Virus record (IMG/VR): IMGVR_UViG_3300019776_000754
Coordinates: 1-28,148 of that record
From: a virus
Direction: 5' to 3' (one strand)
Length of the DNA stretch: 28,148 nt
A model generated the notes under the pieces. That model worked only from the letters and a program-made list of their open reading frames with translations, was not told where the DNA came from and did no database searches. The position numbers and the translations under genes were made by a program. Below are positions 6,811-24,259 of this stretch, piece after piece (the first letter of the stretch is position 1; the number at the start of each line of letters is the position of its first letter).

Positions 6811-7061
6811 ACGCATTTGAGTCGGCGCAAGAGCAGAAACTTCGCGATGCGATGACACGAACCAACGGCGACAGTCTCTGGGCGTGCATGTCTGTGATTC
6901 GCGATGCTGTCGCAAACTCTGACGAGGCTGAAGCCAAGGTGCGGAGCATCTCCAAGGTCGTAGCGGCCTGTGCGAAATCAATGGATCTGTATGCATTGGC
7001 TCGAGGGCTGGATGACAGCGAACGATCCAAGGAACAGATTGCGAGGATCCGTCACCTGTGA
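6807..7061 (+). CDS. Small hypothetical helical protein
   Basis: An 84-residue protein starting MNAFESAQEQKLRDAM, predicted all-helical, with charged N-terminus and a Val/Ala-rich middle (SISKVVAACAKSMDLYALA). Its ATG overlaps the stop of the ATPase gene (ATGA), and its own stop overlaps the GTG of the next gene, so it is deeply embedded in the recombination operon. No motif is recognised. A small accessory subunit of the ATPase is possible from coupling alone. Confidence 0.65.
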   Translation: MNAFESAQEQKLRDAMTRTNGDSLWACMSVIRDAVANSDEAEAKVRSISKVVAACAKSMDLYALARGLDDSERSKEQIARIRHL

Positions 7062-12369: not shown

Positions 12370-12445
12370 TCCTCCTTGCCCATTGCATGGGCAGCTAAGA
12401 CTTTTCATGCCTGCACAGTGCAGGTTTGGGGACGAGGGGCAATTA
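12370..12445 (-). promoter_or_regulatory. Leader with three consecutive hairpins
   Basis: On the minus strand three stem-loops follow each other within about 75 nt upstream of the gene at 12363: GAGGGG/CCCCTC, CCTGCAC/GTGCAGG (one-base loop) and TGCCCAT/ATGGGCA, the last directly before the ribosome site. It may control translation of the 73-aa protein, or end transcription from upstream. The loops hold no obvious ligand motif. Confidence 0.4.
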
Positions 12446-12697
12446 CCCCTCCGCACTAGGCCTAACCCCTCCTAGTTGGTCACCGAGTATTTCAAAATCC
12501 ATGTCGGCAGCAACTTTGTGGGCAGTTGCTGCGAACGTTTCTCTGTAAGCGTCTGCGAGGCTTTTCCCTCTTTCGATGACGAGCGTCAGCCCTGAGGCTG
12601 GCGTGTTCTGCCGCAGACAGCTTAGGCTGGCACCAAGGGTGCCTTTGCGTTTCATGTCGCGGATTGTCTTGCGAATGTTCTTTTCCAATGCGTCCAT
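12443..12697 (-). CDS. Small hypothetical protein
   Basis: An 84-residue basic protein starting MDALEKNIRKTIRDMKRKG, with the ATG at 12697 preceded by CAGGAG. Mostly helical, with KRKGTLGASLSCLRQNTPASG in the middle and an ending that looks disordered (GGVRPSAEG). It lies between the 273-aa gene and the three-hairpin leader. No family recognised; the basic helical start is compatible with nucleic-acid binding but proves nothing. Confidence 0.55.
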   Translation of the reverse strand: MDALEKNIRKTIRDMKRKGTLGASLSCLRQNTPASGLTLVIERGKSLADAYRETFAATAHKVAADMDFEILGDQLGGVRPSAEG

Positions 12698-12732: not shown

Positions 12733-13554
12733 TTATGCTCGGCTACGTTTGAGCCGTCGCGCCAATATCCCGATGTAAGGCTTGGCTGTTGGGTCGTCCA
12801 ATTGCAAAAGGTAATCCATACGGTAGCCCATGCTCGGATCCAGGTTGTGGCGCTGGCAGAACGCCAGTACGCCAGCTTCGCAAGCTCCTGCGGTCACTCG
12901 GTCTTGCAGCCCAACGAATCGATCCAAGCGTTTGATCTCTCCCTCGTCGGTGCGTATCGCCTTCTTGCTTTCGAGCGCTCGGCACTCTTCGAGGGTAGCC
13001 CCGTGCGATGCGCCAACCAAAAAGCCCTTGACCCACTTGACCGCGTGCTTGTGCTTTTGCCCTGACGATTGCAGCCACCATGCCTGATTGCCCTTGAGCC
13101 TCTGAGTCCACACTCCTTCAATCAGCTCGATCTGTCGCAGTTGTTGGAGCGTCAGATTGATCCGCAGGTCGCCATGAGTTGCCTTGTACCGCGACGAATT
13201 GGCGTATTCCCGAGTGTTGTCAATTTCGCACAGCGTATACTCACCGATGATCAACCTCTTTCGCTCTCCCATTGAGTAGCCTGTGCTAAAGTTTCGCAGG
13301 ATTTGCTCGGCTTTCGCGCGAAGCTTGCGGTACTCGCTAAGGTTGATGCCCCACTTGGTCTTGACCGACTCTGCGAGCCTGCGGTCGATTTCTCGCAGGT
13401 AGCTTGCAGCGTCAGGTAGCGGCGATTCCAATTTCAGATTCTGCGCCGCCTTGGCTAGCAACGAATCGAGGTACTTCCCTCTAAAATCCAACTTGTCCGA
13501 GAGTGTGCGTTCGGCCTTGGTCTTAATCAGTTTTCTTGCCTTGGTCGCCATCAT
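12733..13554 (-). CDS. Hypothetical basic protein of leftward operon
   Basis: A 273-residue very basic protein, MMATKARKLIKTKAERTLSDKL at the start. The middle is helical with many Arg/Lys (KWGINLSEYRKLRAKAEQILR), then LRINLTLQQLRQIELIEGVWTQRL, and the C-terminal part has DRVTAGACEAGVLAFCQRHNLD and GYRMDYLLQLDD. AAGGAG precedes the ATG, just after a GCCCTTGC/GGGGGC hairpin (shared with the leader at 15838). The C-terminal helical unit looks like a DNA- or RNA-binding fold, but no catalytic motif is visible. Largest gene of the operon; unknown role. Confidence 0.6.
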   Translation of the reverse strand: MMATKARKLIKTKAERTLSDKLDFRGKYLDSLLAKAAQNLKLESPLPDAASYLREIDRRLAESVKTKWGINLSEYRKLRAKAEQILRNFSTGYSMGERKRLIIGEYTLCEIDNTREYANSSRYKATHGDLRINLTLQQLRQIELIEGVWTQRLKGNQAWWLQSSGQKHKHAVKWVKGFLVGASHGATLEECRALESKKAIRTDEGEIKRLDRFVGLQDRVTAGACEAGVLAFCQRHNLDPSMGYRMDYLLQLDDPTAKPYIGILARRLKRSRA

Positions 13555-13586
13555 TTGTTCTCCTTGCCCTTGCGGGGGCTAACACT

Positions 13587-13640
13587 TGGAATACCGCAAC
13601 AGCGCGGGCAATCGGGACCGCGTTGCAGTCCCTCATGTCC
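13587..13640 (-). promoter_or_regulatory. Structured intergenic element, copy A
   Basis: The first stem is CCGC/GCGG. The second is a two-part hairpin: an inner stem GGGAC/GTCCC (13614-13618, 13628-13632) with a 9-nt loop, then a 3-nt by 3-nt internal loop, then an outer stem 13606-13610 with 13636-13640. It sits between the stop of the gene at 13654 and the start of the gene at 13554. Copies B, C and D share the plan with different stem bases. Confidence 0.55.
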
Positions 13641-13653
13641 AAACTCTCAACGG

Positions 13654-14115
13654 TTACGCCAACTGAAGCTCATCGTCCGTGTAAGCTTCGCCGCAATCAG
13701 CAAACCCATTGCTCGGGATTACTTGCGGTTGAGGCAAAATGCTTGCTGGCCACTCGTACTCCGATCGGTTCGACTTTGCCTTGGCGTACAGTCGCTCAAT
13801 CAGGTCGTTGTGTTTGCCCGCACGAACATCGTCTGCGATCTTGTCCAGCGTCTTTTGTGAGAATCTCGCTGCGGCCTCAACGAATGCAGTTGGATTACCC
13901 TTGCCGTCGATGATGATGGAGGTCCAACCCTCATTGGATCGGCGATCATGCTGGACGGCGATCTCGTAACCTCGGGAGTATCGTTGTCCGTTGAAGTAGT
14001 TCACGCCGCCTAGTGTGTACGAAACCACCAATCGCAGCCGTGGCGTCACCGCCTTGCCGCAATCAATGAACGTGGGAGCCGTAACAGTGGCGATGACGAT
14101 GGAACGATCTGTCAT
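13654..14115 (-). CDS. Hypothetical protein of leftward operon
   Basis: A 153-residue protein, MTDRSIVIATVTAPTFIDCGKAVTPRL at the start, beta-rich to about residue 70 with GGVNYFNGQRYSRGYEIAVQHDRRSNEGWTSIIIDGKGN, then helices (KTLDKIADDVRAGKHNDLIERLYAKAK). TTTAGGAGACAGC lies before the ATG at 14115, the same ribosome-site block as the gene at 14634. Upstream is copy B of the structured element. No known family; soluble cytoplasmic. Confidence 0.6.
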   Translation of the reverse strand: MTDRSIVIATVTAPTFIDCGKAVTPRLRLVVSYTLGGVNYFNGQRYSRGYEIAVQHDRRSNEGWTSIIIDGKGNPTAFVEAAARFSQKTLDKIADDVRAGKHNDLIERLYAKAKSNRSEYEWPASILPQPQVIPSNGFADCGEAYTDDELQLA

Positions 14116-14164
14116 AATGCTGTCTCCTAAAACAGTGGTAAAAACCGTGCTCCTGCCAATCAGT

Positions 14165-14210
14165 AGCGCGGACAGTCGGGGCCGATCTCTCAGCCCCTCA
14201 TGTCCGTGCT
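14165..14210 (-). promoter_or_regulatory. Structured intergenic element, copy B
   Basis: Inner stem GGGGC/GCCCC with a 10-nt loop beginning CG and ending CA, internal loop GTC/TCA, and outer stem GGACA/TGTCC extending outward to GCGC/GTGC. The inner stem differs from copy A at paired positions so that pairing is kept. It lies between the stop of the gene at 14215 and the start of the gene at 14115. Confidence 0.6.
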
Positions 14211-14214
14211 ATGG

Positions 14215-14634
14215 TTAGCGGGCCTCGGCCATGATCTCGGCCACTGTCTTTGGCTTCCAGTGAAGGTCGATCTCGACCATTGGGGCCGACAACAATTCTT
14301 TCAGGTCGAAGTATCCAAGTTCTCGAAATCCCATGTCCGCAACACCGAACACTGGGTCTGAAGGATCTTCGTCACGCTCCACAATCCACCAATCGCACGA
14401 CGGGTGGAACAGGTGGATCAAGGCTTTGGCGGTCTTTGCGTCCTCATCCGATCCTGGGCCGCCGATGACAGGAAGCGATTTGTAACTGGCCTCAAGGTCG
14501 ATCAACGCCTGAGCGAAAAAGTCTCCCTCCTCGCCCCGAAGCAATTGCCGTAGTAATCGCAATTGCGTCCTCGGTACAATGTGCTCCAACGTGCTGAACG
14601 TTGCGACGGTCAATTTGCGGCTTGGTGCAAGCAT
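14215..14634 (-). CDS. DUF2958-type phage/plasmid protein
   Basis: A 139-residue protein with the DUF2958 pattern in its second half: HLFHPSCDWWIVERDEDPSD, FGVADMGFRELGYFDLKEL, then EIDLHWKPKTVAEI, i.e. Trp-Trp, ELGYF and a final WKP motif. Such proteins are found on plasmids and phages and their function is unknown. The ATG at 14634 has CAGGAGACAACT before it; an upstream extension to 14976 is a shadow without ribosome site. Leader copy C lies just upstream. Confidence 0.75.
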   Translation of the reverse strand: MLAPSRKLTVATFSTLEHIVPRTQLRLLRQLLRGEEGDFFAQALIDLEASYKSLPVIGGPGSDEDAKTAKALIHLFHPSCDWWIVERDEDPSDPVFGVADMGFRELGYFDLKELLSAPMVEIDLHWKPKTVAEIMAEAR

Positions 14635-14662
14635 AGTTGTCTCCTGAAAACAGTGGTAAACT

Positions 14663-14710
14663 CCTGCGACGTTGCAGGCAGTCGGGGACCGGATCAGCGA
14701 TCCCCTCGTG
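14663..14710 (-). promoter_or_regulatory. Structured intergenic element, copy C
   Basis: First hairpin CCTGC-6 nt-GCAGG (14663-14678), then a second with inner stem GGGGA/TCCCC (14684-14688, 14701-14705), a 12-nt loop and a weaker outer stem. A stretch reading ACCACTGTTTT then (C)AGGAGAC after it is shared with the leader of copy B, ending in the ribosome site. Confidence 0.55.
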
Positions 14711-14726
14711 CGCGAAACGTTGCTGC

Positions 14727-14993
14727 TTAGCCTTTCGTGTTGCGACGTCGCCGCAGGTAATGCATAAACTTCACCCAGTCGCATACCAGCACGCCGCAGC
14801 GTAAAGTTGCTGGGACGATCAACGCTTTTCCATCGATCGGATAAACACTCGCCATCACGAACGAATCGCAGCCGGGATACTGCCGCTTGTCGGACATAGC
14901 TACTGGTAACTGAACAATCATCGTGGGACACCCGTTGATGGCTTTCGCCGCGCGGATGAATTGATGGATTCGCCAATGCTCTTTCACTCGCAT
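14727..14993 (-). CDS. Small hypothetical protein with hydrophobic-basic pattern
   Basis: An 88-residue protein. It begins MRVKEHWRIHQFIRAAKAINGCP, has a beta-like middle (CDSFVMASVYPIDGKALIVPATLRCGVLVCDW) and ends YLRRRRNTKG. Three cysteines are spread through it. AGGGGGCACTGTC before the ATG is a plausible ribosome site. It has no structured leader of the A-D type in front; it follows the small gene at 15005 closely (11 bp). Not recognised. Confidence 0.55.
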   Translation of the reverse strand: MRVKEHWRIHQFIRAAKAINGCPTMIVQLPVAMSDKRQYPGCDSFVMASVYPIDGKALIVPATLRCGVLVCDWVKFMHYLRRRRNTKG

Positions 14994-15004
14994 GACAGTG
15001 CCCC

Positions 15005-15184
15005 CTATCGCTTGACGTATGCGTTCAAGCCAATGGTGACGGGTTTTCCCTGCACCATGACGGTTGTGGGCTGATTGCCATGCGAACTCGCGACAACCAG
15101 CGTTTTCCCGCTCGCGCTTGGAACCGGGGGATCTTGGACCGGGATTCTGATAACCAATTCGCCGTTTTCAATTGATGCCTTCAT
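15005..15184 (-). CDS. Small conserved-looking protein with GLNAYV ending
   Basis: A 59-residue protein, MKASIENGELVIRIPVQDPPVPS and then GKTLVVASSHGNQPTT, QGKPVTIGLNAYVKR. It looks like a compact beta fold. Similar short proteins with the GKTLxVAST-GN..T and GLNAY pattern are, as far as I recall, common on plasmids and phages; no role is known. TTTAGGAGAC precedes the ATG at 15184. Leader copy D lies upstream. Longer starts (15250) run into the leader hairpins and are rejected. Confidence 0.65.
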   Translation of the reverse strand: MKASIENGELVIRIPVQDPPVPSASGKTLVVASSHGNQPTTVMVQGKPVTIGLNAYVKR

Positions 15185-15217
15185 GTCTATGTCTCCTAAA
15201 GATGGAAGTGGAACTAT

Positions 15218-15270
15218 CCTGCAAAGGCGCAGGGGATCAGGGCCGCACAATCGCAGCCCATCACCCGCGC
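15218..15270 (-). promoter_or_regulatory. Structured intergenic element, copy D
   Basis: First hairpin CCTGC-6 nt-GCAGG (15218-15233), matching copy C with a changed loop. Second: inner stem GGGC/GCCC (15240-15243, 15256-15259), a 12-nt loop starting CG and ending CA, a symmetric ATCA/ATCA internal loop and an outer GC-rich stem. It lies between the genes at 15278 and 15184. Confidence 0.55.
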
Positions 15271-15277
15271 GCCGTCG

Positions 15278-15838
15278 CTAACAGGCTTCCACGCCTTCAG
15301 GGGCACGTTGCTCGGCAGGCAGGCCGAACATGTTGTCGTTGAGATGCTCGCCCACAAGGAAGCAATCCGTGGGGCGATTGAAGACGGCAGGGACCGCCTT
15401 CAAGGTCTTAAGAGCCTCAACGATCTCAAGGGGCTGAGTTGACCAGCCGTTGTCGGCTAACTTGGCGATCTTCAGCGCGAGGCCGATGATCTCAGCGTCG
15501 AAACCGCACTGGTACAGCTTGCAGCTATAAAGCGAGCCGTAGTAGTAGCCGTGGCTTTCGTTGTAGCGTCGGTCGGTCTGCCAGCGAAACGTCACACTTC
15601 TGCCAAAGGTACAAACACTGAAATCCACATGAAACGTGCTTTTGGTCTCATCCCGAAGCAATTTGCAGCGATTCAGACTGCTTTCGTATCCATAAGCCTT
15701 GAAAACTTCAGTCTCATCCACAATCGCGGCAAATTGGACCGTGATCTCGGGATGGATGTACATCTCGTTGTGCTTGTACTGCGAGTAATCCGTGGCTTGG
15801 TACGCAATGACGCGCTGATCATGCTTAAGTTTCATCAT
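15278..15838 (-). CDS. Hypothetical protein, first gene of leftward operon
   Basis: A 186-residue protein (MMKLKHDQRVIAYQATDYSQYKH at the start). The first ~110 residues are beta-rich with many aromatic residues (VQFAAIVDETEVFKAYGYES...RRYNESHGYYYGSLYSC), the last part helical with two phases of Leu and Val. CAGGAG precedes the ATG at 15838, beside a GCCCC/GGGGC hairpin like that before the gene at 13554. It is the promoter-proximal gene of the operon. Nothing is recognised. Confidence 0.6.
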   Translation of the reverse strand: MMKLKHDQRVIAYQATDYSQYKHNEMYIHPEITVQFAAIVDETEVFKAYGYESSLNRCKLLRDETKSTFHVDFSVCTFGRSVTFRWQTDRRYNESHGYYYGSLYSCKLYQCGFDAEIIGLALKIAKLADNGWSTQPLEIVEALKTLKAVPAVFNRPTDCFLVGEHLNDNMFGLPAEQRAPEGVEAC

Positions 15839-16375
15839 TCTCTCCTGCCCCTTGCGGGGGCGCCAGAATACTGATTCGACCGAGACAGTCCCGGTCTCTC
15901 CATCCAGAATATCGGATTGCAGCAAAGCCGTCAATTAGGGTTTCCTGGGAAGATCCTAGATGCACGGCGAAAACTGAGGTTTCTGCAGGGATTTCGATGG
16001 TTTCCGGAGGGGGAAATTTTTTGGGAATCTCGACTGGGAATGCGGTGGTGAGTCGCTGCAGGATCGAGGACCGCACCCGCAGAGTTTGCGTTCGGGCGGA
16101 AATCTGGTAGACTGCCTGGGCAATGCAACAACACGGTGTGCAGCATCACCGAGAGCCCAAGGCGAAAGCACAGGCCGAGATACTGCCGACAGGACTGACC
16201 GAGCCAGTTCGCTTGCCCCCCTACAGCCCGCAGAGCCAACGGGGGGCGGTAGGGTATGGATACCCTATGGATAGGGTATCCAATACCTATCAACACCCCA
16301 AAACCCCTGGGAAAACGCATGTTTTTACCAGTTTGGGGGGGAGGGGGGGGTGCGCGCTGAAAGACCGGAGTATCG
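15839..16375. promoter_or_regulatory. Divergent control region (537 bp, no convincing gene)
   Basis: This gap separates the leftward operon from the rightward gene at 16376. The left part is the leader of the 15838 gene, with a GCCCC/GGGGC hairpin (15847-15861) and a repeated TATTCTGG. An open frame at 15825-16076 (minus) reads through this leader, has no ribosome site and is not called. The middle has the half-site array listed separately. The right part is G-rich, with runs of seven and nine G around 16335-16350. Promoters for both directions are expected here but no exact -35/-10 pair is asserted. Confidence 0.55.
16250..16291. promoter_or_regulatory. Array of alternating half-sites, probable operator cluster
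   Basis: The motif TAGGGTAT and its reverse complement alternate: TAGGGTAT, GGATACCCTA, TAGGGTATCC, ATACCTAT. The central pair (16258-16267 and 16272-16281) is a perfect 10-bp inverted repeat with a 4-base spacer, and 16252-16265 is another overlapping palindrome. Such tandem palindromes are typical of cooperative repressor or origin-binding sites. Confidence 0.6.
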
Positions 16376-22468: not shown

Positions 22469-24259
22469 ATGTTTGATTTAGATAACGACGAAAAACGAGC
22501 AAGGCTTCTTAAAGCGATACGCTCGTCGCGTGATGCGATGGAGCCGTTTCGTCGTGTTCGAAAAGAGCTTATCAAGGATTACGTTGGATCTTGGTACGCA
22601 GAATCAGGTGCGGAAAACAAAACGCTCGTAAACCTGATGAACCAGACGGCTCGCATCTACACTATTGCACTTGCCGCAAATAATCCGCAAGTTTTAGTTT
22701 CCACATCGCGAATGGAAACCTTGCCGTTCGCTGCTCGATTTGAGGTAAATCTCAATAAACTCATAAGCGATATGACGCTTGATAAGACAATTCGAGCAAT
22801 TGTCATGGATGCGTTTTTCTGTCTTGGGTGCGGTGTTGTAATGATGAGAGACACCGACACTCGTTTTCATGGAATGCTTGAATCTGAAGAAGATGTTTGG
22901 TTGGACCCAGGCCAGCCTTGGTTTAACCGAGTTTCCATTGACGACCTGATTCTTGACATGCCAGCCAAAGAACTGACCAAGATGCGATATTGCGGTCACA
23001 GGTATCGTGCTGACTACGAAAAAGTCATGGACGAGCCAGGGTACAACAAAAAAGTCAAAGACAAGTTGAAGCCAACAAATCGCCAGCATCATGATTCCGT
23101 AGGAGCCGCGAGGGATATTGCATCGGACTGGGGGAGTGCGGAAGACGATGATTTGAAGGACATGATATGGATGATGGATGTTTGGATTGCAGAAAACAAC
23201 TCCATCGCAACGTTTGCTTGTGATCAAGCAGATCTCCCACCGCTTATTGAAAGAGAATGGATTGGTTCCCAAGCTGGTCCGTACAAGTTTCTTTCCCTTG
23301 GTGACACTCCAGACAATGTCATTCCGACATCGCCAGCTATTAACTTGAAGGGTATGCACGACCTGCAGAATAGGCTCCACCGTCGCATGGAGGATGATTC
23401 CGATGCTCATCGCGTGGTGAATGTATACCCTCCAGGCATGGAAGACGACGCAGAAAGACTCAGGACATCAGAAAGAAATGGATGGTACAGAGGTCGGAGC
23501 CCAGAGCAAATTAAGCAATTCCAGGTAGGCGGGATTGACCAAAGAGATATGGCTCTCGCGACATTCTTGCAGGCGGAATACGACAGATTTGCTGGCAATT
23601 TGCAAGCAATGGGCGGTCTCGGTCAGCAGGCATCGACTTTAGGCCAAGAGGAGCTGATTCATGGAAACGTTTCCAAAAACGTTGCAGACATGCGAATGGC
23701 AGTTGTTTCGTTTGCTTCGGATGTTGTTTTGGATTTAGGGAGATTGATGTGGGAGGACTCAACGCTTGAACTCAAGACTGCTATGCCTATTGAAAATAGT
23801 GGTATTAGCGTTAATTCAGATTGGACGCCGGATTATCGGGAGGGAGAGTTTGAAGATTACGACTTTAGAGTCGAGCCATATTCGATGGTTTTCAAGACTC
23901 CAGAGCAAAAGCTTCAAGAGTTGTTCCAAGTATTGCAACAAATTGCCCCGCTGTGGCCCATGTTTCAGGTCTCGGGAGCATCGATCGATGCCGAAGCTAT
24001 TGTTGACGAAATCGCCAGACTGAAAAACAGGCCAGAGTTCAAGCGTTTTATTACTTTTGCGGCACCTGCCGAAATGCTCGGTGGAGATCAGAACACCGTC
24101 AGGCAATCTCCGGTGACAACAAGAGAGACGATACGTCGCAACGTAAGTGCAGGTGGAACGGAGCAAGCAAGAAACAATGCTCTTATTCAAACCTTAATGG
24201 GCGACAAGCCGCAAATCAATTTGCAGCAAAAAGACTCAATGTTGCAAGGAACAGGTTGA
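22469..24259 (+). CDS. Portal protein
   Basis: A 596-residue protein that would form the dodecameric DNA-entry ring at the capsid vertex. The size and order after terminase fit. N-terminal helical part (MFDLDNDEKRARLLKAIRSSRDAMEPFRR) then LVNLMNQTARIYTIALAANNPQVLV. The central crown/stem region has VWLDPGQPWFNRVSIDDLILD and a long helix with VGGIDQRDMALATFLQAEYDRFAGN. The C-terminus, LQELFQVLQQIAPLWPMF, is barrel-like helical and ends disordered. The ATG at 22469 is immediately after a hairpin leader. Overlaps the next start by TGATG. Confidence 0.85.
   Translation: MFDLDNDEKRARLLKAIRSSRDAMEPFRRVRKELIKDYVGSWYAESGAENKTLVNLMNQTARIYTIALAANNPQVLVSTSRMETLPFAARFEVNLNKLISDMTLDKTIRAIVMDAFFCLGCGVVMMRDTDTRFHGMLESEEDVWLDPGQPWFNRVSIDDLILDMPAKELTKMRYCGHRYRADYEKVMDEPGYNKKVKDKLKPTNRQHHDSVGAARDIASDWGSAEDDDLKDMIWMMDVWIAENNSIATFACDQADLPPLIEREWIGSQAGPYKFLSLGDTPDNVIPTSPAINLKGMHDLQNRLHRRMEDDSDAHRVVNVYPPGMEDDAERLRTSERNGWYRGRSPEQIKQFQVGGIDQRDMALATFLQAEYDRFAGNLQAMGGLGQQASTLGQEELIHGNVSKNVADMRMAVVSFASDVVLDLGRLMWEDSTLELKTAMPIENSGISVNSDWTPDYREGEFEDYDFRVEPYSMVFKTPEQKLQELFQVLQQIAPLWPMFQVSGASIDAEAIVDEIARLKNRPEFKRFITFAAPAEMLGGDQNTVRQSPVTTRETIRRNVSAGGTEQARNNALIQTLMGDKPQINLQQKDSMLQGTG

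Follow-up and report, generated by a model that had tools for sequence, protein, structure and literature searches.

A structured intercistronic phage RNA occupies the same post-stop-codon position as pistol-like and type II hammerhead ribozymes

A roughly 60-nt RNA element with extensive covariation recurs between the small genes of a group of phages, where this undescribed, putatively pseudoknotted RNA and two recognised ribozyme types replace one another at shared gene boundaries, each beginning right behind a stop codon. By analogy with the ribozymes that share its niche, the element is probably a cis-acting intercistronic RNA with the same job as they have, namely separating the phage transcript into single-gene mRNAs; we give this reading a probability of roughly one half. 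The swaps offer a role that can be tested, the separation of cistrons, which the terminating ribosome may control, and they mark out a natural place in which to look for a new ribozyme.

The window, that is, the whole stretch of DNA analysed, comprises the 28,148 bases of an IMG/VR virus record, and its leftward operon carries four copies of the element (A to D) on the minus, or gene, strand. The copies, the parts of copy C and the adjacent genes are as follows, with scores from the covariance model R2:

13594..13651, minus strand: copy A of the intercistronic element (51.8 bits, E 3.6e-9; in alignments A3 and A5)
14152..14216, minus strand: copy B of the intercistronic element (43.3 bits, E 1.8e-7)
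14663..14724, minus strand: copy C, the most typical (70.5 bits, E 6.4e-13)
14716..14721, minus strand: strand a of copy C, the 5' strand, abutting the upstream stop codon and partner of the hexaloop (A5 columns 4-9; covariation)
14678..14711, minus strand: hairpin b of copy C, with outer stem 14709-14711 and 14678-14680, YGA/GAY loop, and inner stem 14700-14705 and 14684-14689 (covariation)
14663..14678, minus strand: second hairpin, c, of copy C (CCTGC..GCAGG; U-A/C-G changes in homologues)
14668..14673, minus strand: strand a' of copy C, the hexaloop AACGTC of the second hairpin, pairing with strand a
15218..15279, minus strand: copy D of the intercistronic element (56.9 bits, E 3.5e-10)
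12733..13554, minus strand: gene downstream of copy A (273 aa, unknown)
13654..14115, minus strand: gene between B and A (153 aa, unknown)
14215..14634, minus strand: gene between C and B (139 aa, weak DUF2958)
14727..14993, minus strand: gene upstream of C (88 aa)
15005..15184, minus strand: gene downstream of D (59 aa)
15278..15838, minus strand: gene upstream of D (186 aa)

An earlier note on this DNA had described a four-copy structured element. All four copies are present, as is the block that it had seen B and C share before the ribosome site, and a covariance model finds homologues. The note was right to call this a structured RNA of a phage operon but drew its extent too short, missing the 5' strand at the upstream stop codon and the pairing of that strand with the hexaloop. 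The genes at 15005-15184 and 14727-14993 lie 11 nt apart, with no element between them.

Read on the gene strand from the stop codon, the element consists of strand a, a spacer NCGN, hairpin b and hairpin c. Hairpin b is built of a 3-bp outer stem, a YGA/GAY internal loop and a 5-8-bp inner stem, and hairpin c of CCYGC, a hexaloop and GCRGG; the paired changes of the inner stem, the internal loop and the CCYGC/GCRGG hairpin are all as first claimed. The second hairpin of copy B is poor, with a C-A mismatch and an insertion. Covariation in homologues, whose absence the earlier note had said would tell against its proposal, is present in both the 10-copy and the 26-copy alignments. In the former, double-sided changes occur at 6 of 13 pairs, and 95.3% of the cells are paired, against 28-51% in slid registers. 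In the latter, 14 of 19 pairs show double-sided changes with 91.2% of the cells paired, and the covariation score reaches 0.529, while slid registers stay at or below 0.109, the shuffles ignoring the kinship and recombination of copies. The compensatory changes first noticed in four copies are therefore extensive and beyond chance. They extend through the outer stem of hairpin b, with 93.6% of cells paired, and its inner stem, with 95.5%, both rich in double changes; pairs 14-49, 15-48 and 16-47 are likewise supported by covariation. All six pairs between strand a and the hexaloop (a:a') show double-sided changes, in 30 cells, with variants such as GACGTT/AACGTC, CAGT/ACTG, TAGC/GCTA, CAGC/GCTG and AGATT/AATTT; in copy A this strand is complementary only in part. 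Hairpin c is near-invariant, and its support comes from a U-A to C-G change at 51-67 in four rows and a U-A at 49-69 in one.

RNAalifold alone returns a long rod, in which a:a' continues via 11-12:51-52 into hairpin b. This rod differs from the two-hairpin form by a mean of -1.5 kcal/mol, is the lower of the two in 18 of 26 copies, and is strongest in copy B (z -5.5 in folding). The models are consistent with either of two arrangements: a:a' and c:c' may coexist as a pseudoknot, or they may alternate in a two-state fold with the long rod as the alternative. Among unpaired positions, G18, A19 and A45 are conserved in 26/26 copies and C11 and G12 in 23/26, and the first spacer position, N10, is T in 15, G in 6 and A in 5. 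The internal loop is symmetric (3x3, YGA facing RAN), and the 3-nt bulge beside tandem G-A pairs that marks a kink turn is absent. The GA loop is missing from some divergent copies. Two divergent copies, L416 7379-7443 (record G028) and one in L390 (G042), combine a GCCGC/GCGGC second hairpin with a large internal loop and keep the GACGTT/AACGTC pairing.

Folding energies are alike on both strands. The gene (minus) strand is nonetheless favoured as the RNA strand because, read on it, G-U pairs outnumber A-C pairs (32 against 16 in 26 copies), because the genes are codirectional, and because the ribozyme neighbours lie on the same strand. The outer stems of A and B, taken alone, had pointed to the other strand, a cue that the 26 copies overturn.

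The element recurs among the relatives of this phage. The model R1, built from 10 copies, matches in 15 of 44 related records, and R2, built from 26, in 16 of 50, giving about 36 copies in 16 records other than the window, at 1-6 per record and with E-values down to 1.6e-13. These records were reached mainly via the portal protein, at 68-98% identity; a relative from a protein search, L001, has two further copies, and L084, L126 and L217 were found via pattern searches. As a control, R2 was run over 99 other viral loci chosen because they share a seed motif (0.94 Mb), where no match was better than 25 bits (E 0.026). In Rfam, copies A to D match no family at the gathering threshold or at E 5, and the related regions contain nothing at gathering besides one hammerhead and one tRNA. 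The phage group is apparently uncultured, with several records around 70 kb. At the settings used, neither the portal nor the operon DNA has a relative among the 50,697 phage records of INPHARED. A link to Rhodopirellula or other Planctomycetes, whose genomes the earlier note had suggested searching, finds no backing: R2 has no match at 1e-4 in 294 Planctomycetota genomes, a set that offered no positive control, and only one of 392 such genomes has a distant relative of the portal (31% identity). The portal-like protein of the window itself (22469-24256, plus strand; weak SU10_portal) has at least 80 relatives in IMG/VR and none in INPHARED.

All copies are intercistronic, with codirectional small genes on either side. 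Measured in 33 copies, the distance from the end of the upstream stop codon to the start of the element runs from -8 to +5 nt and averages -0.5; in one further copy, in G023 (G023_b), 25 nt separate the two. The next start codon follows 23-56 nt past the element, with the ribosome site within that stretch. The element is thus an intercistronic spacer, tied to the upstream stop codon no less closely than to the downstream start, rather than the leader of each small gene that it had been taken for. A rough map of 12 regions with crude gene calls gives mostly 75-120 nt for gaps that bear an element and mostly -19 to about 60 nt for the others. The neighbouring genes are shuffled between phages: in G041 and G044 the element and its leader are nearly identical before different genes. 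The element is independent of gene identity. The ribozymes of its niche had gone unnoticed.

The pistol-like ribozymes came to light through a sub-threshold Rfam Pistol match in the window, at 22.9 bits, with 32.9 bits in the best relative; neither reaches the gathering cut-off of 34.5. The match falls in an adjoining gap of this operon:

12428..12478, minus strand: pistol-like ribozyme candidate (model R3, 61.2 bits, E 9e-12; itself a row of the model)
12471..12475, 12466..12469, 12461..12465 and 12456..12460, minus strand: its k, P2, UUAGG and k'
12452..12455, 12434..12451, 12432..12433 and 12428..12431, minus strand: its UGCG, P3, GU and P2'
12410..12424, minus strand: hairpin CCTGCACTGTGCAGG, just downstream of the pistol-like copy (from the sequence; R2 aligns it)

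By model R3, 9 of the 50 related records contain 23 copies, which with the one in the window makes 24, and three pistol-like copies outside the model carry the same core. The order of parts is k, P2, UUAGG, k', YGCG, P3, GU and P2'. In 20 aligned copies P2, P3 and k:k' are present, with 220 of 220 cells paired and double changes at 7 of 11 pairs; in this alignment (A6) UUAGG, GC and GU are invariant and G42 is kept in 19/20. The residues named as catalytic or structural in pistol are the purine at 32, G33, G40-C41-G42 and the GU (PMC6154101), and the copies keep the purine, G33, G40-C41-G42 and the 2-nt GU junction. The P1 hairpin is absent, and k is a plain 5' strand directly after the stop codon. 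A P1-less form below Rfam's cut-off is thereby added to pistol. The hairpin CCTGCACTGTGCAGG is of the sequence type of the main element's second hairpin. Many pistol-like copies are directly followed by a short hairpin (e.g., GCTGTCGCGTGACAGC, GCTGACACTGTGTCAGC), for instance just after L409 4650 and L414 2795; in the downstream product such a hairpin would form a cap at the 5' end.

The hammerhead is of type II and lies at L413 8792-8854 (minus strand; record G023), scoring 45.7 bits against an Rfam cut-off of 37; it follows immediately on a TAA and precedes a RadC-like gene (Pfam RadC, 8e-38). At this gene, whose homologues share 50-81% protein identity, the same position is held by the element in G025, by the hammerhead in G023 and by the pistol-like form in G009, G015, G041 and G043. 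Before the 273-aa gene stands the element in the window, G001 and G005 and the pistol-like form in G012, and before the G044_a family the element in G044 and the pistol-like form in G012, G019, G038 and G039. The exchange is also seen at three families of upstream genes (the G044_b_up, G005_82_up and G043_a_up sets). A further set (G044_c, G012_a and G038) was dropped, since the homology there is only a short shared tail.

Three unrelated RNA folds at one position beside homologous genes suggest a single RNA-level job. Since two of the three belong to or closely resemble self-cleaving classes, the separation of cistrons is the natural reading; it would yield single-gene mRNAs with structured ends. 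This could come about in three ways: the element might cut itself, a nuclease might cut it, or it might block exonucleases coming from a nearby cut. A ribosome that terminates on the preceding stop codon would sit over strand a, and folding may therefore be coupled to translation. The nuclease route has a counterpart in the T7-type RNase III processing signals between early genes, which are irregular internal-loop hairpins in the intercistronic gaps of an early-type operon. The main element shares with them such a hairpin in such gaps of an early-type operon, and its long-rod conformer would resemble phage RNase III signals; it differs from them in its conserved second hairpin and hexaloop pairing, and the rod is a predicted conformer only. 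The common position of the three folds may also stem in part from genome compactness. The biological reason for the clustering of self-cleaving ribozymes beside some phage-related genes is described as still unknown (PMC10085705). Reasoning from ribozyme neighbourhoods led to pistol, hatchet and twister sister, while ten motifs from such neighbourhoods showed no cleavage when tested (PMC10085705).

The main element might also cleave itself and represent a ribozyme class not yet described, perhaps one that arose from pistol by circular permutation, so that three interchangeable folds would split the operon; this strikes us as rather unlikely. Pistol (RF02679; PMC4604425, PMC6154101) occupies the same niche in the same operons and, like the element, has a loop/strand pseudoknot beside a hairpin, and the order a b b' c a' c' of the element is a circular permutation of the pistol-like k P2 k' P3 P3' P2'. 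A circularly permuted pistol was nevertheless rejected, as the helix order fits and the catalytic residues do not. Pistol has a strictly conserved 2-nt GU junction between P3 and P2, whereas in the element b' and c are contiguous and the junction is absent; the position of G40, the general base within G40-C41-G42, is unconserved, and UUA is absent. Copies A to D do not match the Rfam pistol model even at E 5; the copy at 12428-12478, by contrast, keeps the pistol core and lacks P1. The type II hammerhead (RF02276) shares with the element of G025 the post-stop position before the RadC-like gene, but its CUGANGA/GAAA core is absent from the element, which has no Rfam match to it. The element also has few conserved unpaired bases, where catalytic RNAs usually conserve more; for this reason, and for want of the pistol cleavage junction, it is not filed as a ribozyme. 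The literature searched, with subscription papers and preprints outside its scope, describes neither the motif nor a P1-less or permuted pistol.

Other accounts do without separation. The element might be a translation-coupled switch between the rod (a:a' with 11-12:51-52) and the two-hairpin or pseudoknotted form, in which the terminating ribosome occludes strand a and tunes the next initiation or recycling. Both conformers are conserved and nearly isoenergetic, RNAalifold picks the rod, and the spacing to the stop codon is tight; yet no copy visibly hides the Shine-Dalgarno sequence, AGGAGA being unpaired and downstream of the element, the stop-to-start frames are mixed, and swaps with ribozymes would be unexpected, so that we hold a switch to be unlikely, though worth serious consideration. 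Stop-codon read-through or frameshifting is out, given the mixed frames and the in-frame stop of copy A. Binding by a protein of phage or host or by RNA polymerase, with the element acting as a translational operator or in nut/put-like processive antitermination, would fit a conserved structure repeated along one operon with a sheared-GA-type loop (G18, A19 and A45 invariant in A5), but we consider it improbable: the sites mark numerous gene boundaries, not the beginning of the operon, and unrelated ribozyme folds substitute for them at homologous genes.

That exchange likewise argues against a DNA-level role, in which the repeats would serve mainly as cassette boundaries for homologous or single-strand recombination that shuffles small genes. 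In L001 a hybrid copy (6950-7008), its 5' half of type B and its 3' half of type A, stands where the gene 13654-14115 is missing, so that the repeats do also act as recombination junctions, and the shuffled neighbours and the near-identical element and leader before different genes in G041 and G044 point the same way. Compensatory changes, however, erode DNA identity, G-U pairs exceed A-C pairs on the gene strand, and ribozymes would be odd niche neighbours for such boundaries; recombination as the main function is thus very improbable, and gene shuffling is more likely a by-product of the repeats. A simple intrinsic terminator or double-stranded DNA operator is scarcely credible. The hairpins are GC-rich, but no copy has a T-run, a U-run downstream or a terminator-like site, the last being an outcome that the earlier note had said would refute its proposal, and the arm sequences vary freely while their pairing is kept.

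Other systems also have repeated sequences ahead of numerous small phage genes, and some of these contain inverted repeats. The SAS and ESAS of mycobacteriophages are sites tied to translation starts, with near-fixed-sequence inverted repeats (PMC3203893), and T4-type PeSLs, as cited in PMC4503421, join a promoter to a stem-loop and are associated with gene shuffling. The main element resembles both in its placement, and neither is described as a covarying pseudoknot.

Two further kinds of repeat occur in the operon region. Directly 5' of the AGGAG ribosome site, a short hairpin (e.g., GCCCCCGCAAGGGGC or TGCCCATGCAATGGGCA) is present in three leaders, at 12370-12395, 13560-13580 and 15841-15862 (minus strand); in its L001 counterpart the stem sequence differs (GGCTCCGCAAGAGCC) and the pairing is kept. 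The divergent region that precedes the leftward operon contains ATACCCTAT/ATAGGGTAT repeats, at 16241-16298 of the window and at about 5390-5455 of L001; these are possibly operator or origin repeats.
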